Below are positions 30,182 to 38,657 of a DNA stretch of 39,578 nt, in pieces. The DNA is taken from positions 1-39,578 of the forward strand of contig JAAUZD010000044.1 in the NCBI GenBank assembly GCA_014804785.1. Direction: 5' to 3'. The notes under the pieces are model-generated. The model saw nothing but the letters and a program-made list of their open reading frames with translations, did not search any database and was not told where the DNA came from. A program made the position numbers and the translations under genes. The number at the start of each line of letters is the position of its first letter. The first letter of the stretch is position 1. This stretch comes from Lachnospiraceae bacterium. GTDB lineage: Bacteria; Bacillota; Clostridia; Lachnospirales; Lachnospiraceae.

Positions 30182-31114
30182 TTAGTTATTTTTTTGCTTT
30201 TCTTCTTTATACAAATGATATAGAAGCACTGCCGCCAGCGCAATGAATCCGGCTCCGCCTATCAGTCCTGTGGGCATCGGTCCCCAAAAAACATTATATG
30301 GATTTTGCAGGGATGTGAAACAAACACTGGCGGAGGCAAGACCATTTATGGTTCCATGCCCTATGATAGCAGGCACGCAGCTGCCTGTCTTAATTGTCAC
30401 ATAGGACAGAATAATTCCCAGCACAACGCAGAACACACACATAGCCAGAATGCCTACAAACGGAAATCCTCTATATCCCAATCCATAGTTATGACCCATA
30501 ATTGTAAGAGGCGCATGCCAAAACCCCCAGATGACTCCGCAAAGCAAAAGTGCCGGTATCTTCGGAAAGCATTTCAGCATCTTAGTCAGCAGGAAACCGC
30601 GCCAGCCCCATTCTTCGCCGAAACAGGTAACAAAATTCAAAAATGGTGATAAAAAAATCCCCATAATAATCTGCACCAGCATTACCTGCTTTATCTGCTC
30701 CATGGATATCTCTATTCCTGTATTTTGCGCCTGTGCCTCAAAAAGTGCCTGGGCATAGCCCATATCGCCATCAAACTGTTTAGGAAAAATAGCAAAATAC
30801 AATACAGCACCTAAAATAATGAGCAAAGCAAAACCAAACCAGACAAGTCCATAATATTTCAGGTTTCCTTTCAGATTTAAAGAAAGCATCAAATTGTCTT
30901 TGCTAAATTTTTCCTTCGTTACGAGGCGTGTGAGAAGCGCTCCTATTGCCGGTATGAACATGACACCTGCCACCAAAATCTGCGCCAGATATGCCTGCTC
31001 AACATATATACTGCCCGCCATCGGCATAATCAAGAAAATTTCCACCCCATATGTCAGAATGAAGGTAATGAGTAGGAATAACAGAATCTGTGTTTTACTT
31101 GATTTCGTATCCAT
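30182..31114 (-). CDS. CPBP-family intramembrane protease
   Basis: The 310-residue protein has about eight hydrophobic segments and the CPBP (Abi/CAAX protease) motifs: Glu167-Glu168 with Arg172 (GEEWGWRGF), His200 (FWHAPL), and His253 with Asn257 (GHGTINGLA). These residues make the metal site of Rce1-like proteases. In bacteria, relatives neighbour peptide-bacteriocin loci and are often proposed as immunity or maturation factors. It follows the radical SAM gene by 77 bases but has its own promoter, so its link to the RiPP cluster is plausible yet unproved. A Firmicute chromosomal housekeeping role is the alternative. Confidence 0.88.
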   Translation of the reverse strand: MDTKSSKTQILLFLLITFILTYGVEIFLIMPMAGSIYVEQAYLAQILVAGVMFIPAIGALLTRLVTKEKFSKDNLMLSLNLKGNLKYYGLVWFGFALLIILGAVLYFAIFPKQFDGDMGYAQALFEAQAQNTGIEISMEQIKQVMLVQIIMGIFLSPFLNFVTCFGEEWGWRGFLLTKMLKCFPKIPALLLCGVIWGFWHAPLTIMGHNYGLGYRGFPFVGILAMCVFCVVLGIILSYVTIKTGSCVPAIIGHGTINGLASASVCFTSLQNPYNVFWGPMPTGLIGGAGFIALAAVLLYHLYKEEKQKNN

Positions 31115-31191: not shown

Positions 31192-32592
31192 TCACTCACA
31201 TTTACGGGCTTTTGATTCAATTTCTTTCATTACGGTCCGTATCTTATCTGTCCAGCCTCCTTTAAACAGAAGGCAGGTAGTCATATCCCTTCCTAGAATA
31301 TCCTGCGGGCTGGTTTCCAGCGCACTTGCCCTGCAGCCGGCAAGACAGCGCATCGCGTATTCGCATTCCTGACATTCCGGATTGTGTGCAAGAAGTTCTG
31401 ATGCACGGGTTTCAATCAGATGCATATAGGATGAATCACTGATGCATTTTTTAAGCCCTTCTTCTGTGATAAGAGGATACTGCTCCAAAATCGATATTCC
31501 TGAAAGAGCCATACAAGGAAGCGCCCTCCCTTCCGCGGAAATATACATAACCATCCGTGCATGACCGCAGACACACAGCTTGTCCGGATCAGAACAGTTC
31601 TTTTCTGCGGGAATACGCCAGTTCTTGGGATTTTGGGGACTTGCGTAAAAGAAACCGCCAAGCTGCAAAGACAGTGGCATTCCATCCTCATAATACTGAG
31701 GAATATAATCCAGATAAATCTGAAATAGTTCTTCCATCGAAATAGCTTCCCCGAATCCGCCCTCTTTCCAAGCCCCCACATTAGCAATGGGATTAGTTTT
31801 CAGCGATCGGCAGCCTAATGCGTGAAGATAATTGATTGACTCACGCAGTGTATGCTTATTCTGTCTGTGGATACACATTTCGGCTCCCGTGGGGAACCCA
31901 TGCTCACGGCAGCGCAGGAATGCATCGGTGACATATTTTTCCGCCCCATCAATGCCGCGCAGCCAGTCGTGCCAGCCCACTCCATCAAAGCTCATATTGA
32001 ATTCCGGATGAATATCCCTCTTTTCCAGCTCGTCAAGCAGTTTTTCGGTCACCAACTTTCCATTGGAATAAATAGTAGAAATATGAATACCGCCGTCCAG
32101 CAGCGCGTCTACAATTTCCAAAAAATCCCCGCGCACAAGCGGTTCCCCGCCGGTTAAGGTGACCTCATAAATGCCGCAGTCTATAAGCTGCTGTACAATA
32201 TCCATAACCTGCTCATGAGAAAGTTCTCCGAATTTTGCGTCCGGTGCAGACATGTAACAATGTTTGCACCGGTAATTACAGCGCCCGGTCACGGACCAGT
32301 GAGCCGTACGTATGTAACGGTTATCATAGCTCTTATAAAGCTGTGCAAGCCTTAATGATTCTCCCTTGGCACAGGGCCGGATAATCTGTTTTTTTTCTAA
32401 CTCCTTTAAAATATTTCTCTCCGTCTCTGAAAGTCCTTCTGCGGAAACATCCACATGACCGTTGCATAAAAGAAACACATCCATCTCCGTTTTTCTGCAA
32501 AACTGCGTCCTGCCGCTTCGCTCATCCACTAATGCATAGGGAAGCTTTTGCCAGCCGCGAAGCAAATATGGTTCATTTAATAAAAAATACAA
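31192..32592 (-). CDS. Radical SAM/SPASM peptide maturase
   Basis: The 466-residue enzyme has an N-terminal RiPP-maturase region (YFLLNEPYLLRGWQKLPYAL), the radical SAM cluster motif CxxxCxxC at Cys105, Cys109 and Cys112, TGGEPL shortly after, and a SPASM domain with CVCGHARMVMYISAEGRALPC and CQECEYAMRCLAGC for auxiliary iron-sulfur clusters. It resembles maturases linked to Nif11-type precursors. I moved the start to the TTG at 32592: GGAGG lies 9 bases upstream and the codon follows the precursor stop by 31 bases. The longer ATG frame to 32874 would overlap most of the precursor gene. It probably makes thioether or carbon cross-links in the Cys-rich core; the chemistry is not readable from sequence. 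Confidence 0.92.
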   Translation of the reverse strand: MYFLLNEPYLLRGWQKLPYALVDERSGRTQFCRKTEMDVFLLCNGHVDVSAEGLSETERNILKELEKKQIIRPCAKGESLRLAQLYKSYDNRYIRTAHWSVTGRCNYRCKHCYMSAPDAKFGELSHEQVMDIVQQLIDCGIYEVTLTGGEPLVRGDFLEIVDALLDGGIHISTIYSNGKLVTEKLLDELEKRDIHPEFNMSFDGVGWHDWLRGIDGAEKYVTDAFLRCREHGFPTGAEMCIHRQNKHTLRESINYLHALGCRSLKTNPIANVGAWKEGGFGEAISMEELFQIYLDYIPQYYEDGMPLSLQLGGFFYASPQNPKNWRIPAEKNCSDPDKLCVCGHARMVMYISAEGRALPCMALSGISILEQYPLITEEGLKKCISDSSYMHLIETRASELLAHNPECQECEYAMRCLAGCRASALETSPQDILGRDMTTCLLFKGGWTDKIRTVMKEIESKARKCE

Positions 32593-32623: not shown

Positions 32624-32971
32624 CTAGTTACCAGCACCAAAAAGTGTACAAATGCAGCAATTGTCCTCTTCTGTACCATGAAAGGTAAATCCAAGCCCCA
32701 CACAGCCACAGGTAGCATGGCTTGCATCTCCTGTTCCGCCGCCGGCAATAACGCAAATGCATTTACTGCCGCCAGATACAGCTTCCAATTCATCATCTGA
32801 CATTTCTCCATCCGCCGGCTTTTGCTCAAAGTCTTCTTCTGTGATTGTGATACCGTATTCGGCTGCGAGTGCAATAAAGTCTGCCTCCGTAGCTTCCTTA
32901 TTCTTACATAGAGCCTCTACTTTTTCTCTTACTTCCGGGTTCGTTTTGATAAGTTCTACAAATTCTTTCAT
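32624..32971 (-). CDS. Nif11-type RiPP precursor with Cys-rich core
   Basis: The 115-residue peptide has a Nif11-like leader (1-68): a helical EFVELIKTNPEVREKVEAL segment, then DFIALAAEYGITITEEDF, and the processing end DDELEAVSGG. Cleavage after Gly68 would give a 47-residue core with seven Cys at 71, 73, 88, 90, 105, 106 and 108. The three Cys groups start 17 residues apart (71, 88, 105). The core is Gly-rich and poor in charge. An AAAAGGAG site precedes the ATG. It is followed by the maturase and preceded by an ECF-type sigma gene, and exporters with a C39 peptidase lie in the same operon. Confidence 0.9.
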   Translation of the reverse strand: MKEFVELIKTNPEVREKVEALCKNKEATEADFIALAAEYGITITEEDFEQKPADGEMSDDELEAVSGGSKCICVIAGGGTGDASHATCGCVGLGFTFHGTEEDNCCICTLFGAGN

Positions 32972-33045: not shown

Positions 33046-33534
33046 TCAATGTTTGATGTATTTTCGCAGATTCTTTAAAGCATTGCCGTGCAATAACTTG
33101 GCATAGCTGTAGGAAATACACATTTTGTCCGCGATTTCTTTTAGGGTATATTCCTGATAATAATGCAAAAGTATGATGTCCCGCTCCCGCCTATCCAATT
33201 TTTCCAGTGCCGCTGCCAGTTCCTCTAAAAGCTCTTCCTTTAAGATTTTTTCAATAAAATCCTCTTCGGACGCCAGTTCCTTGGTCCATTCATCACAGAG
33301 GTGATTCGTACGGTAATAGTCAATCACCGTATTTCTGGTGATAGAATAAATCCAGGTCGAAAGAGACGCACGGCTCTCATCATAGGCAGGCAGATTTTGG
33401 TAAACCTTTGTAAATATCTGGGATACCAAATCCTCTGCATCCTCCGTCTGAGATATCCTGCTGCCTACATACGCAGCTACCTTTGCTTTATAAATAGGGT
33501 ACAGCTGTTCCTTTCTAGTTTCTCCGTCATTCAT
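33046..33534 (-). CDS. ECF-type sigma-70 factor
   Basis: The 162-residue protein has sigma region 2 (DLVSQIFTKVYQNLPAYD, then LSTWIYSITRNTVIDYYR) and region 4 (LDRRERDIILLHYYQEYTLKEIADKM with a helix-turn-helix). I chose the ATG at 33534: AAAGGAGG lies 6 bases upstream and the codon overlaps the stop of the preceding small gene as ATGAATGA. The frame to 33564 is not favoured. Lying between the exporters and the precursor, it may switch on the cluster, perhaps from a site in the 74-base gap before the precursor. I could not confirm a matching promoter there. No membrane anti-sigma gene is seen nearby. Confidence 0.92.
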   Translation of the reverse strand: MNDGETRKEQLYPIYKAKVAAYVGSRISQTEDAEDLVSQIFTKVYQNLPAYDESRASLSTWIYSITRNTVIDYYRTNHLCDEWTKELASEEDFIEKILKEELLEELAAALEKLDRRERDIILLHYYQEYTLKEIADKMCISYSYAKLLHGNALKNLRKYIKH

Positions 33535-33712
33535 GGTGCTCCTCCTTTTGGGGCAGAGAACCAATCTCTCCGGCAGCGCTTACAAACTCCATCTCCTCAT
33601 CGTGCAAGGCGGAGCCATACCGTGCCTGCGTGTCGGCAATCAATGTGAAAAGACGGCTGTTTCCTTCAAATCTTTGGTAATCAAGCAATTGCTTCAAATA
33701 TTGCTCTGACAT
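33527..33712 (-). CDS. Small 61-residue protein coupled to the sigma factor, leader-like C-terminus
   Basis: I do not recognise a named family. The AAAGGAGG site 7 bases before the ATG and the overlap of its stop with the sigma ATG make it a real coupled gene. The middle reads FEGNSRLFTLIADTQARYGS, and residues 38-47 (HDEEMEFVSA then AG) closely follow the DDELEAVSGG end of the precursor leader. The 13 residues after that have no Cys and are mostly charged. It may be a sigma-control protein, a decoy that binds leader-recognising enzymes, or a relict precursor; none can be chosen from sequence. Confidence 0.75.
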   Translation of the reverse strand: MSEQYLKQLLDYQRFEGNSRLFTLIADTQARYGSALHDEEMEFVSAAGEIGSLPQKEEHHE

Positions 33713-33788: not shown

Positions 33789-35975
33789 TCAATCATTTTC
33801 CTCTATCCTTTGTCTGGCTACTAATTCTGCAAATTTTCCCCTTGCCGCAAGCAGTTCCTCATAGGTACCATCTTCCGCAATCTTTCCATTTTCCAAATAA
33901 ATAATCCTGTCGCACTGGCGGATTGTGGAAAGCCGGTGGGCAATTACAATCCTGGTACATTTGAGGCTGTCCAGAGATTGGGAAACCTTTTTCTGCGTCA
34001 GATTATCCAAGGCGGAAGTAGCCTCATCCAGCATAAGAACTTTAGGCTTGGGCGCAATTGCCCTTGCAATCATCAGCCGTTGCCGCTGACCGCCGGATAC
34101 ACCGCCGGAGCCTTCTGAAATATAGGTATGCATTCCCATGGGCATCCGGCGGATATCTTCTGCAATCCCCGATAGCTCCGCCGCTTCCCATGCTTCATCC
34201 ATGGAAAGCCAAGGCGCAGAAATTGTGATATTAGAGAAAATATTCCCAGAAAAGAGTCTGCCGTCTTGCATGACGACGCCGATCTTTTTCCGCAGAGATT
34301 TTAAGCTTAAAGAAGCTATATCCTTGCTGTCATAGTAAACAGCCCCTCGCTGAGGCTTTTCAAAACCAAGCATCAGGCGCATAAGCGTGCTTTTCCCACA
34401 GCCTGTAGCTCCTACAATGGCAACATATTGCCCCGGATTGATTTTCAGTGAAAGATTGTCGATAACCGGCGGCATATGTTCCGTATAACGGAAAGTCACA
34501 TTATTCAGCTCGATTTTTCCGCTAACGTGAGATACTTCCTGCTTCCCTTCAGAAATTTCAGGCACAGTCTCCAAAATAGGTTTTACTATATGTAAAATCG
34601 GCTGAAACTGAGCCACAGAGAAAGCTGTACCTGCCAGCGTGCTAAAGGCGCCTGAAATCATAGCATAGGCTGTGTAAAAAGCGTAATATTCCGCTACTGA
34701 TACACCGCCTGTCACTGCCCTGTAATAAAGAACAATGCATCCAAACATGGGAATCGCCGTGGTAATCACGGTATTCATCTTCAAAAACAACGGCGGATTA
34801 TAGGTAATGCTGCTCTCCTGTGCATATGATTCCCCCCATTTGGCAAAAGCTCTTTTCTCTGCGCCGGAAAGCTTGATTTTCTGAATACCGGAAATAAGGG
34901 CATAACCCAGACCGTGTTCCTTTGCCGCCGCCTCGACCTGCCGCTGCTGAAGCTTCGTTTTCCAGAGCACGGAAACGAAGGTGGAAAGAAGCGTCAAAAG
35001 CAAAATACTCACAGATGGAACCACCAGCACCGGCGTATATGTAAAAATCTGTCCCACGTACACCAATGAAAACAAAGCAGTCAGACCGGCAGATAGAACA
35101 GAAGATACAAAAAGTTTACAGAAATTCTCCATCTGCCTTGACCTATTTGCCAGTTCTCCCGCACTATAATCCTTAAAAAAATCTGCTGGGAGGGACAGGA
35201 TGCGCATCATCGTAGCCGCCTGCATGGATAAAGTCATCTTTGTGCTGATTTTTGCTTCCAGAAGCGCTTTTACGCCATTTAAAATTAGAATGCTGACATT
35301 CACACAAATCAGAAATATCGTAACAGACCAGAGCAGACGGATACTCCCGCTTGTAATCACCTCTGAAAAAATAATATTGTTTAATCTGGGTGTCAAAAGC
35401 CCCACTACCGCCACCGCCAGGGCAGACGCTGCAAAAAGAATAAAGTCTGCCAAAGACAACGTGCCCGCCATATATTGCATCAGATTCCGGGTTGTCAATT
35501 TTTTTGCCGGAAAAGGCTTATAAAACATCACTGCATCCTGCTTGAAAGAACCTTCATTTTTCCTAGTAACCTTCTGCCTTCTTCCGCTTTTTCCGTCATA
35601 GAAATAGTATCCGCCTAAGGGGTGCGGTAACAGTGCTATAAGCCTTCCATCGCTTTCTCTTGTGGCAAGTAACACACCGATTGCATCCTTTCTCCAGCCT
35701 TTTTCCAGACATACTGTCCGCTGCATGATGCCGTAAGGCTCAAGCGCCGCTTCCAGATTGATTCCATCCTTTGGAATAGATTTAATCCTGTTCTTCGCAT
35801 CTATATGGTAAAAATCCAATATTTCCTCAACAGCGTTATATGTATCTTTTTGTTTATTTACCTTTCCCGCGCTCTTCGTCCCCAGAACCGCATCCGAGAG
35901 ACTTAAGATGGATTCCCCAAAGGTTTCTTCATCACTCTGCTTTCTCTGGCGAATCTGTTCGTCAAACCATCCCAT
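33789..35975 (-). CDS. NHLM-type ABC transporter (bacteriocin/RiPP export), second subunit
   Basis: The 728-residue protein has an N-terminal cytoplasmic region of about 155 residues (MGWFDEQIRQRKQSDEETFGES), a six-helix ABC membrane domain (about 160-450) and an ATPase domain with Walker A GATGCGKST, signature VSGGQRQR and Walker B VLMLDEATSALD, then the H-loop IAHRLSTIR. It matches the NHLM export ABC type without a peptidase domain. It starts 11 bases after the peptidase-ABC stop, and the two probably form a heterodimer. The substrate would be the Nif11-type peptide. Confidence 0.9.
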   Translation of the reverse strand: MGWFDEQIRQRKQSDEETFGESILSLSDAVLGTKSAGKVNKQKDTYNAVEEILDFYHIDAKNRIKSIPKDGINLEAALEPYGIMQRTVCLEKGWRKDAIGVLLATRESDGRLIALLPHPLGGYYFYDGKSGRRQKVTRKNEGSFKQDAVMFYKPFPAKKLTTRNLMQYMAGTLSLADFILFAASALAVAVVGLLTPRLNNIIFSEVITSGSIRLLWSVTIFLICVNVSILILNGVKALLEAKISTKMTLSMQAATMMRILSLPADFFKDYSAGELANRSRQMENFCKLFVSSVLSAGLTALFSLVYVGQIFTYTPVLVVPSVSILLLTLLSTFVSVLWKTKLQQRQVEAAAKEHGLGYALISGIQKIKLSGAEKRAFAKWGESYAQESSITYNPPLFLKMNTVITTAIPMFGCIVLYYRAVTGGVSVAEYYAFYTAYAMISGAFSTLAGTAFSVAQFQPILHIVKPILETVPEISEGKQEVSHVSGKIELNNVTFRYTEHMPPVIDNLSLKINPGQYVAIVGATGCGKSTLMRLMLGFEKPQRGAVYYDSKDIASLSLKSLRKKIGVVMQDGRLFSGNIFSNITISAPWLSMDEAWEAAELSGIAEDIRRMPMGMHTYISEGSGGVSGGQRQRLMIARAIAPKPKVLMLDEATSALDNLTQKKVSQSLDSLKCTRIVIAHRLSTIRQCDRIIYLENGKIAEDGTYEELLAARGKFAELVARQRIEEND

Positions 35976-35986
35976 CGCCCATCTCC

Positions 35987-38164
35987 TTATTCATTCGATA
36001 CAAGCTGCGTATAAATGCCGCCCTTTACATATAACTCTTCATGGCATCCGCGCTCAACGACCTTGCCCTGATCCAGTACCAGAATTTCATCACAGTGCCG
36101 TATGGTAGAAAGTCGGTGTGCCACTACAATACAGGTAATCCCCCGCTCCCTGATGGACTGTACTACCTCGTATTCTGTTTTCGCATCCAATGCTGAAGTA
36201 GCTTCATCTAAAATAATAATCGTCGGATCCTGTGCCAGCACCCGGGCAATTTCCAACCGCTGTCGCTGACCGCCGGAAAAGTCCTTACCGCCCTCAGTAA
36301 TCCGGTATTGATAACCGCCCTCCCTCTGCATGATGTCTTCATGAAGCTTGGCATCTCTGGCGGCAAGAATCATCTCAAAGTCTTCGATAGAGTCATCCCA
36401 CATCTTGATATTGGCGGCAATGGTATCCTCAAATAAAATAATATCCTGATCAACTACCGCCAGGGATCCAGTGAATATTTCCCGTCCAATTTTTGTCACA
36501 GGCTTACCGTCAAAGAGAATCTCCCCGCTCCAGGGCTGATACAGACCTGAAATCAGCTTGGAAAGGGTAGATTTTCCGCAGCCGGAACTGCCCACAAAGG
36601 CAACATGACTTCCAGGCTGTAAATCCAGGCAAAAGTCTTCAATTAGCGGCTCACCCAGACGCGAGTAGCCGAAAGTAACATGCTTCATCTCAATCCGTCC
36701 GGAAAGTTTGTGATAGGATGTTTCATCTTCCGCTTCCTCTTCCTGGCAATGTACATCTGCAGGATATTCCATCACATCCTCCACCCGCTCCATCTGGGAA
36801 CGCATTTCCTGCAGGGTCTGTCCCGCTGTAATTAATGTAACAGCCGGCTGGGTAAAAGAGGTCAGGAATCCCTGAAATGCCATCAACATACCTACAGTAA
36901 AGGATCCCTGCATCGTTAAATACGCCCCCAGTGCCATCACACAAGCGCTCGTCAGAGTGGAAACCACATTTGGCAGTATTCCCAAATATTGATTTAGCTT
37001 TGCAAAATGTACCTGCTGGGTATTCACACTCGCCTGATAGCCTGCCCATTTTTCAAAAAACCCGTTTTCTGCACCGCTTGCCTTAATTGTTTCAATCATT
37101 TCAATCCCCGAAGCAGTGGCACCAGCCAGCCTGCCTGCGTCCCTAAGCTGCACCCGGGTGATATTGATACGCTTTTGGGAAATAATATTGGAAAGCGCCA
37201 GATTGATTACAACGGATGTAAGCCCCGCTAAAGCCAGCGGCAGACTATACCCCACCATAACCATCAGGTAAAACACCATGGACGCTGCATTAAATGCCAA
37301 AGGCGCAAAGGTATTTACCAAAGTATTGGCTATCTGCCCGTTCGTTTCCTGCCGCTCCTGAATATCTCCTGCCATGCGCTGGGAAAAGAATTCCATGGGC
37401 ATTTGCAGCACTTTCCACAAAAAAGTGGCATTTCCCACCGTCGCCAGCTTTCCTGCCAACCGATAGGCATAAAACTCCTTCATGCCTGCTACCAGCAGCC
37501 ACACCAGCGAAACAGCGGTAAGCAGCAGCGTAAAGGGCCAAAGCCACTGGGGATTCCCCCCAGTCAACAGTCTGTCAATAAAAACTCTGGAAAAAACCGG
37601 CTGTATAATCCCAATCAAGGAAATAAACATAGATGTCAGAGCTACAAAGATTACGGCGCTTTTTACTCCCTTAAGGCGCTTTCTGGCAAAAGAACTCATC
37701 CGCTTAGGCGCTCCCCCCGGTACAAACTCTTCATTCGGCTCAAACATCATGCAAATACCGGTAAAGGAATTGTCAAATTCTTTCATAGAAACAGTGATAT
37801 TGCCCCTTGCCGGATCATTGAGAAATACCTTATTTCCCTTGAATCCGCAAAGTACCACAAAATGATTGAAATTCCAGTGAATGATACAGGGAAATTTCCC
37901 ATTTTCTTTTAAAGCTTCCGGCTCATAGCGGTAGCCCTTAGCCGTAAGCCCATAGCTGCGGGCAGCTTTTAAGATATTTCTGGCGTTGGATCCATCCCTT
38001 GAGACACCGCAGTCCGCCCGCACCTGCTCTAACGGAATCCATTTATTATAATAGGCAAGAATCATCGTCAGCGAAGCCGCCCCACATTCGAGGGCTTCCA
38101 TCTGCATTACTACCGGCACTTTCGCTACACCCCTTATAACAGGATGCCTTTTTTGCTTTTCCAT
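35987..38164 (-). CDS. Peptidase-containing ABC transporter of the NHLM type
   Basis: The 725-residue protein is a peptidase-ABC exporter. Its C39 domain (1-135) has the catalytic Cys27 (LECGAASL), His101 (NHFVVL) and Asp117 (LNDPARG), which cut after a double Gly, as present at the end of the precursor leader. Then follow six membrane helices (about 160-440) and an ATPase domain with Walker A GSSGCGKST, signature FSGGQRQR and Walker B IIILDEATSALD. I chose the ATG at 38164 with AGGGGGG upstream; the longer frame to 38290 overlaps the HlyD-like gene. It begins 10 bases after that gene. Confidence 0.93.
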   Translation of the reverse strand: MEKQKRHPVIRGVAKVPVVMQMEALECGAASLTMILAYYNKWIPLEQVRADCGVSRDGSNARNILKAARSYGLTAKGYRYEPEALKENGKFPCIIHWNFNHFVVLCGFKGNKVFLNDPARGNITVSMKEFDNSFTGICMMFEPNEEFVPGGAPKRMSSFARKRLKGVKSAVIFVALTSMFISLIGIIQPVFSRVFIDRLLTGGNPQWLWPFTLLLTAVSLVWLLVAGMKEFYAYRLAGKLATVGNATFLWKVLQMPMEFFSQRMAGDIQERQETNGQIANTLVNTFAPLAFNAASMVFYLMVMVGYSLPLALAGLTSVVINLALSNIISQKRINITRVQLRDAGRLAGATASGIEMIETIKASGAENGFFEKWAGYQASVNTQQVHFAKLNQYLGILPNVVSTLTSACVMALGAYLTMQGSFTVGMLMAFQGFLTSFTQPAVTLITAGQTLQEMRSQMERVEDVMEYPADVHCQEEEAEDETSYHKLSGRIEMKHVTFGYSRLGEPLIEDFCLDLQPGSHVAFVGSSGCGKSTLSKLISGLYQPWSGEILFDGKPVTKIGREIFTGSLAVVDQDIILFEDTIAANIKMWDDSIEDFEMILAARDAKLHEDIMQREGGYQYRITEGGKDFSGGQRQRLEIARVLAQDPTIIILDEATSALDAKTEYEVVQSIRERGITCIVVAHRLSTIRHCDEILVLDQGKVVERGCHEELYVKGGIYTQLVSNE

Positions 38165-38174
38165 AGTATCCCCC

Positions 38175-38657
38175 CTAATTCCACAAGAAGGACATCGGTG
38201 AAATCCTTTCTGTCGTAATTTGAGCACTGTAAACTCCACCAGCAGCCGTTCCATCGACCTGTGCCTCATATACCCAATCTTCTTTTGCAAAGTTTCCTAC
38301 ATGGCAGACATAAGAGTCCATCTCCTCACAACAGACAGGTACTGAGGCAATTGATACAATGGGCAACTCTTGTCCCTGGATTTCCAGATTCATCCCAACC
38401 TGCACAGAACCGCTGTCCTCTTCCGAAATGTAACAGATGAGCTGCCCTTCTTCACTGACTGCCACCACAGACACAGTGGTATGTAAAAATCCAAAAATGC
38501 CCCACACAAAAAATCCAACAAACAGTAAAAGTATTGCTAAAAGTAAAAACCATACTCCGGGGTTTGGCACCCGGATATAGTCATTCAGATTCTCGGGCGA
38601 AACTACCTTCTCCATGCTCTTTTTCCGAAATAATTTATCTGCTATCCCATTTTCCAT
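38175..38657 (-). CDS. Short HlyD-like secretion protein of the NHLM export system
   Basis: The 160-residue protein has a cytoplasmic N-terminus, one membrane helix (about 34-57, GVWFLLLAILLLFVGFFVWGIFGF) and an extracytoplasmic domain that resembles the beta-barrel end of HlyD-type adaptors. It is much shorter than classic HlyD proteins and lacks a long coiled coil, as expected in Gram-positive export systems. It is the first gene of the RiPP operon, with GGAGG 6 bases before its ATG, followed by the two ABC genes. Confidence 0.8.
   Translation of the reverse strand: MENGIADKLFRKKSMEKVVSPENLNDYIRVPNPGVWFLLLAILLLFVGFFVWGIFGFLHTTVSVVAVSEEGQLICYISEEDSGSVQVGMNLEIQGQELPIVSIASVPVCCEEMDSYVCHVGNFAKEDWVYEAQVDGTAAGGVYSAQITTERISPMSFLWN

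Follow-up and report, generated by a model that had tools for sequence, protein, structure and literature searches.

A stretch of 39,578 nucleotides from a Lachnospiraceae bacterium (contig JAAUZD010000044.1 of assembly GCA_014804785.1, forward strand; this whole stretch is called the window here) carries the gene of a small Cys-rich peptide beside that of a radical SAM enzyme, raising the question of how the cysteines are organised and what the enzyme may make of them. An earlier sequence-only reading had proposed a core of three Cys groups at an exact period of 17 residues, each receiving a similar ring.

The precursor, its maturase and the export genes

The peptide gene (32624..32971, minus strand; AAGGAGA upstream of its ATG) encodes a Nif11-type RiPP precursor of 115 amino acids. 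It matched the Nif11 leader model TIGR03798 with 54.4 bits against a curated cut-off of 32.3 and has a double Gly (Gly67-Gly68), as is characteristic of a precursor of this class; of 24 aligned precursors, among them that of the window, 23 matched the same model at 0.01. The leader comprises residues 1-68 (32768..32971, minus strand), the leader profile ending at residue 68 on the Gly-Gly. Cysteines are located at positions 22, 71, 73, 88, 90, 105, 106 and 108. The translation of the ORF therefore bore out the earlier placement of the seven core cysteines, of the groups C-x-C, C-x-C and C-C-x-C and of the preceding residues K70, T87 and N104.

In the register of the family described below, all on the minus strand, unit 1 (32735..32761) is C71-I-C73-V-I-A-G77-G-G79, which follows the pattern C1-x-C3-x3-G7-x-G9; unit 2 (32684..32710) is C88-G-C90-V-G-L-G94-F-T96, with Thr replacing G9; and unit 3 (32630..32656) is C106-I-C108-T-L-F-G112-A-G114, with the extra C105 just before it. 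An alternative register for unit 2 was given by MAFFT, which set G92/G94 against G7/G9 when 24 precursors were aligned. In the precursors examined no family above its cut-off covered the core, the sole match to do so being sub-threshold (FeThRed_B, 18.4 of 22 bits, in locus L088). A structure model of the precursor showed a folded leader and a core (67-115) nearly all of it at pLDDT below 50; it therefore gives no structural evidence for hairpins and neither helps nor hurts the readings discussed below.

The precursor stop is followed after 31 bases by the probable start, a TTG at 32592 behind TGGAGG, of a radical SAM/SPASM maturase (31192..32592, minus strand; PF04055, 75.7 bits). The cysteines of CX3CX2C and the seven cysteines of CX12GX4C...CX2CX5CX3C...C were invariant in an alignment of maturases from 64 of the 82 loci described below, and the Gly of CX12GX4C was nearly so. 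As in sactipeptide loci, the Cys-rich precursor adjoins a radical SAM enzyme that carries the cysteines for SPASM auxiliary clusters. Of the 91 NCBIfam matches of the window maturase, the top 25 all fell short of their cut-offs; the scores were below those required by the sactipeptide maturase models StsB (69.5 of 625 bits), AlbA (53 of 850) and SkfB (48.9 of 300) and by nif11-class radical SAM maturase 3 (TIGR04103, 80.5 of 725). The strongest match of the 64 aligned maturases to a listed family had an E-value of 2.2e-31. The closest solved relative was the sactisynthase SkfB (53.3 bits by sequence, 75.7 bits by profile), followed in match order by PqqE and SuiB (structure entry 5v1q, which we take to be SuiB). 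CteB (presumably entry 5wgg) was the weakest of the eleven structures listed, and the maturase profile matched it weakly (9.9e-7; positions 8-428 of 449), with none of the individual stretches passing by itself. In four sequences searched with Pfam, the N-terminal part of the maturase showed no RRE domain for leader binding. The window's genome also retains traces of another maturase from this clade (L042, contig C56, 4258-4743), in pieces that correspond to residues 140-222 (53% identity) and 250-330 (31%) and lie in different frames.

The genes on the minus strand are arranged in the order short HlyD-like protein, NHLM ABC/C39 protein, second NHLM ABC subunit, 61-aa ORF, ECF sigma factor, precursor and radical SAM enzyme. 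The NHLM-type peptidase (C39)/permease/ATPase exporter (35987..38245, minus strand) scored 933.7 bits with TIGR03796, for which the cut-off is 853.3, and 123 bits with Peptidase_C39. The second subunit of the NHLM-type export ABC transporter (33789..35975, minus strand) fell just under the cut-off of TIGR03797 (701.1 against 709.4 bits), and the short HlyD-like secretion protein (38175..38657, minus strand) was under that of TIGR03794 (35.5 against 156.2). With minimum thresholds of 40% identity and 200 residues, NHLM-type genes were found for the peptidase subunit in 37 and for the other subunit in 34 of the 82 loci, window counted, many of these loci being cut by contig ends.

Between the precursor and the transporter genes (33046-33712) lie the ECF-type sigma factor (33046..33564, minus strand; TIGR02937, 95.5 bits against a cut-off of 42.9) and the 61-aa ORF (33527..33712, minus strand), which matched no family. 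Both had tblastn matches at 1e-5 in part of the 82 loci (19 and 8, respectively, window counted), which suggests that some members of the family may have dedicated regulation. A gene for a CAAX-type (CPBP) membrane protease (30182-31114) adjoins the maturase; tblastn at 1e-5 found it in one of the 82 loci, the window itself. A strong terminator-like stem follows this gene (30117-30094, minus strand). The window as a whole has 15 terminator-like sites compared to 9.4 in shuffles and 16 promoter-like sites compared to 17.2, and no RNA families or tRNAs were found in it at gathering scores.

The repeated unit among the relatives

Relatives were sought with a query alignment of three maturases in 84,980 species, each represented by one genome, which gave 409 candidate stretches and among them 314 relatives. 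From these 314 the top 80, 48-72% identical, were kept and together with the window and L026 gave 82 loci, around which 132 distinct cores were collected. This set was chosen partly by motif, the first collection having required C-x-C-x3-G; it comprises 113 cores and 19 leader-profile hits added by hand, an addition that omitted truncated hits, duplicates and hits without relevant cysteines. Two cut sites were changed, three off-target ORFs were removed and L027 was dropped because, by its length and core, it is the same contig as L121. Identical cores were counted once, and L093, L108, L119 and L123 were restored by hand in the counts per locus.

Three C-x-C pairs were present in 95 of the 132 cores, two in 15, one in 6, four in 1 and none in 15, and at least three strict C-x-C-x3/4-G-x-G units were found in 94. 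When the 302 distinct units of the collected set were aligned on their cysteines, Gly occupied position 7 in 98% and position 9 in 93%, while none of the other free positions exceeded 48% for any one residue. Because the first collection had required C-x-C-x3-G, the count was redone on the ORFs found with the leader profile, whatever their core. Among 277 distinct C-x-C units from the 180 of 187 hits with at least 10 residues after the leader, 270 had Gly at C3+4 and 257 had it at C3+6, with an overall Gly content of 22%, the profile having been built from the leaders of the collected set. The threefold unit is real and far beyond chance. The proposed repeat thus stood, with three C-x-C pairs in most cores and a radical SAM/SPASM enzyme adjacent. 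On the other hand, the units had been called dissimilar apart from the C-x-C start and nearby glycines, and this has to be amended, since two exact Gly positions (G7 and G9) are almost as conserved as the cysteines.

Some flanking positions are also recurrent in the 95 cores with three pairs. Unit 2 is immediately preceded by Thr in 39 of them and has Lys one place further out in 48; unit 3 is immediately preceded by Arg in 69, and the residue one place further out is an extra Cys in 18. C105 of the window is an extra Cys where 69 of the 95 three-unit cores (window included) have Arg, and the group C-C-x-C occurs beyond the window in two others of the 132 cores, L048 and L065.

The exact period did not fare as well as the repeat. 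By the family register the window units start at 71, 88 and 106, giving steps of 17 and 18, and two equal steps of 17 are obtained only when group three is counted from C105. Random placement of three such groups in a 47-residue core gave equal spacing in 3.9% of trials and spacing equal within one residue in 11.2%, which by itself makes the equal spacing a weak argument. The spacing in homologous cores, which had been suggested as a check, was then determined in the 95 three-unit cores and other spacings were found. The first step ranged from 14 to 27 (17 in 44 cores) and the second from 14 to 30 (17 in 32), and both steps were 17 in 19 of the cores; the two steps were equal in 21 cores, compared to 17.4 expected from independent draws of both distributions. 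Since the steps range from 14 to 30 and equality is near expectation, 17 residues is a typical value, being the mode of both steps, and no rule. These variable steps rule out the exact period as the organising feature.

Counted by locus, a strict three-unit precursor was present in 46 of the 82, a two-unit precursor in 3 (the window among them) and a one-unit precursor in 6; in 15 of the remaining loci the Nif11-led cores had no strict unit, and in 12, some of them cut by contig ends, no precursor was found. Maturases of this clade do not always go with the strict unit, and other cores also occur beside them. In a tree of 88 maturases, from which the partial L123 was left out and in which 7 more distant maturases served as outgroup, the window fell, with good support, into a clade of 13 rows, and 11 of these have a strict three-unit precursor. 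A supported branch parted the 7 outgroup rows from the other 81, long branches leaving their place unsure. The C-x-C-x3-G-x-G unit was not found in frames of 40-350 residues in any of 14 regions around more distant maturases, several of which are cut by contig ends. As a control for precursors located away from this maturase, profile A3 was run over 391 genomes of the window's class and matched 9, the window's own included; none of 14 other A3 loci had the C-x-C/G-x-G unit, a limited control given that the matches were mostly to the leader part and the genomes few. In the window's family (397 genomes) a maturase relative at 1e-30 was found in 14 genomes, and more than 50% identity was reached only in the window and two others.

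The records belong to Bacillota, Actinomycetota (Atopobiaceae, Coriobacteriales) and Synergistota, with one Mailhella, whose C-x-C units lack G9. Many record titles name gut or rumen samples, and most records are metagenome assemblies, in which misbinning is possible. A viral origin was rejected, as no relatives of the precursor or maturase were confirmed in viral contigs, and so was plasmid carriage, since a search of the plasmid collection at 1e-40 gave no hit to the maturase.

Individual loci showed further arrangements. Three perfect units occur, for example, in L110 and L061, and a solitary C-x3-G unit in L103. In L051 (9354-13265) twelve tandem precursors lie behind one maturase. L051 and L053, both closely related to the window, have an open frame of only 32-48 residues in front of the core and thus a shortened leader. 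L052 (9417-9590) and L053 (9417-9605) have a Nif11-type leader followed by an apparently frame-shifted Cys-rich core, which could be due to assembly error or decay. L111 (6704-7195) and L066 (9397-9720), which adjoin maturases of the same clade, have Nif11-led cores of other kinds, one collagen-like with Gly-x-y repeats and the other with a run of GFGFGF.

Possible pairing of cysteines with glycines

If Cys and Gly are partners, units that have lost C1 should show which Cys goes with which Gly. A solitary Cys had Gly at +4 in 31 of 55 cases and at +6 in 12 of 50; no Gly was present at +4 in the other 24 of the 55. Among units of the collected set with G7, 271 of the 287 with C-x-C also had G9, compared to only 10 of the 31 with a solitary Cys (Fisher 9e-16, a missing residue at +6 being scored as not Gly). 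C1 and G9 are thus lost jointly. Because the units are related, they were also collapsed by maturase cluster, the rows with a missing residue being left out. G9 was then present in 26 of 31 clusters for C-x-C and in 5 of 14 for solitary Cys at 80% identity (p 0.004), and in 9 of 12 and 2 of 9 at 65% identity (p 0.03). In the clusters holding both classes G9 was higher in C-x-C in 9 of 12 (3 equal) and in 7 of 8 (1 equal), respectively. The clustered co-loss is only moderately significant. Three of the 10 solitary units that keep both glycines are in L045 and L048, in the clade nearest the window.

Two other observations bear on the pairing. In five units with a loop one residue longer, both glycines were shifted together, to +5 and +7. 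Where G9 was replaced and G7 kept, 14 of the 15 distinct units had Ala, Asn, Ser or Thr at position 9; at the eight other positions counted, the same four residues accounted for 21-52% of everything that was not Gly. Threonine is a natural thioether acceptor too. Among the natural acceptors named in the accessible part of the literature on ruminococcin C and streptosactin are Ala, Asn and Ser (PMC8172795). The small replacements of G9 are only suggestive as acceptors, small residues also being suited to a turn.

From these observations we consider that each unit may form a nested double thioether hairpin of the sactionine type, made by the adjacent radical SAM/SPASM enzyme, a reading that we give an even chance. 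The enzyme would take the alpha-hydrogen from Gly and join the Gly, by its alpha carbon, to the Cys sulfurs; the inner link would connect C3 to G7 (i, i+4) and the outer link C1 to G9 (i, i+8). With three units, a single enzyme would install up to six links per peptide. In the putative order of steps the leader would then be cut after Gly68 by the C39 exporter, as expected from a transporter of this type, and the product secreted; its exporter would suit a bacteriocin-like or signalling peptide, which is a guess. The proposal of C3-G7 inside C1-G9 draws on the invariant SPASM cysteines, on SkfB as the nearest solved relative and on the precedent of ruminococcin C. Unit 2 of the window itself is a counterpoint to the nested hairpin as it lacks G9; Thr96 would be the outer acceptor there. 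A similar ring in each unit, as first proposed, is still the most economical reading, but two cysteines and two co-varying glycines argue for two links per unit rather than one.

The two fixed glycines of each unit could be needed only for a turn. The C-x-C pairs would then serve metal binding or disulfides, no thioethers would be formed, and the enzyme would perform, for example, an epimerisation or form a C-C bond. Glycine is common in turns, and the residues that replace it at position 9 (A, N, S, T) are small and turn-compatible. Joint loss of C1 and G9 with C3 and G7 kept is nevertheless unexpected for turn or metal roles, and the unit offers the enzyme no other target residue of sufficient conservation, so that we regard a core of this kind, without thioethers, as unlikely.

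The same glycines would be confined to a turn if the cysteines were joined, as in ranthipeptides, to beta or gamma carbons of polar spacer residues. The enzyme superfamily is the same, the maturase profile does match CteB, if weakly (9.9e-7), and the C-x3-acceptor spacing is that of freyrasin and thermocellin. However, the spacers vary in both length and residue, and the only near-invariant positions other than Cys are Gly, which has no beta carbon; linkage to the spacers is accordingly quite improbable.

A third arrangement keeps the thioethers of the nested hairpin and the same four conserved positions but pairs them in parallel, C1 with G7 and C3 with G9, both i, i+6. It explains the joint shift of both glycines equally well, and for the C-x-C hairpin of ruminococcin C the available text of the 2019 study did not completely exclude crossed pairing (PMC6779426). 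Parallel pairing predicts that a solitary Cys keeps its Gly at +6, whereas Gly was found at +4 more than half of the time and at +6 in about a quarter, which leaves this arrangement very little room. That the three groups lie as they do by chance, in a Cys-rich core with no repeats, as the 3.9% of random placements with equal spacing might allow, has a negligible probability and is refuted by the conservation of the unit in both the collected and the leader-profile sets, with three C-x-C pairs in 95 of 132 cores and G7 and G9 in 98% and 93% of distinct units.

Comparison with known systems

No recognisable description of this unit was found in the literature searched, which left subscription journals mostly outside, and a listing in a similarity network is possible. 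The locus L114 comes from strain C6A11, for which a lanthipeptide cluster, lah, is published (PMC6363468, seen in part); L114 was not equated with that cluster because its 17 kb contain no complete ORF of lanthionine-synthetase size (longest 487 aa).

With the RiPPs that have Nif11/NHLP leaders and NHLM export the window shares TIGR03798 and NHLM ABC1, both above cut-off, a class that says nothing on core chemistry. Ranthipeptides share repeated Cys rings made by a radical SAM enzyme, six of them in freyrasin, but, according to the accessible text, freyrasin and thermocellin differ in that the link is to the beta or gamma carbon of Asp or Thr, which is impossible at Gly (PMC11002830). That the conserved candidate acceptors here are Gly, without a beta carbon, speaks against the ranthipeptide class. 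Streptosactin (GggA/GggB) is closer in chemistry, since its C31 is joined to G34 by a natural Cys-to-Gly alpha-thioether in a tight ring; as far as the source was available, it differs in having two un-nested i+3 rings with one Cys each (PMC8172795).

Taken together, the relatives in Bacillota, Actinomycetota and Synergistota may constitute a large, undescribed RiPP family, typically with three minimal nested hairpins closed by Cys-to-Gly alpha-thioethers and with variable unit number and spacers, a tentative proposal that falls a little short of an even chance. Were this so, a single enzyme would place an identical two-link hairpin again and again on nine-residue modules whose spacing varies; the module would be a cross-linking tag with a large natural substrate set (132 distinct cores, 94 of them with at least three strict units), and Cys-to-Gly alpha-thioethers would be the rule in a whole family.

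The nearest known system is ruminococcin C (RumC1/RumC2 with RumMC1/RumMC2), which likewise has several hairpins made by a radical SAM enzyme, the first of them from a C-x-C pair with an inner and an outer alpha-thioether (PMC8172795, PMC8188230, PMC6779426; each available in part). In ruminococcin C2 the cysteines C22 and C24 are joined to residues 35 and 31 (PMC8172795, PMC6779426), the inner link is formed first (PMC6779426), and RumMC2 tolerates Gly as the acceptor of a variant, at reduced yield (PMC8188230). Ruminococcin C has two hairpins, with acceptors at i+7 and i+13 in the first and no natural Gly acceptor named in the accessible text, whereas the window family has three units, a Nif11 leader and proposed Gly acceptors at i+4 and i+8. 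The core thus departs from the ruminococcin C-type double hairpin, with three units in the window and conservation of C3+4 and C3+6 in the relatives. The maturase scores far under the known maturase models; judged from the likenesses, the product is a candidate sactipeptide that would work like one of the ruminococcin C sort.
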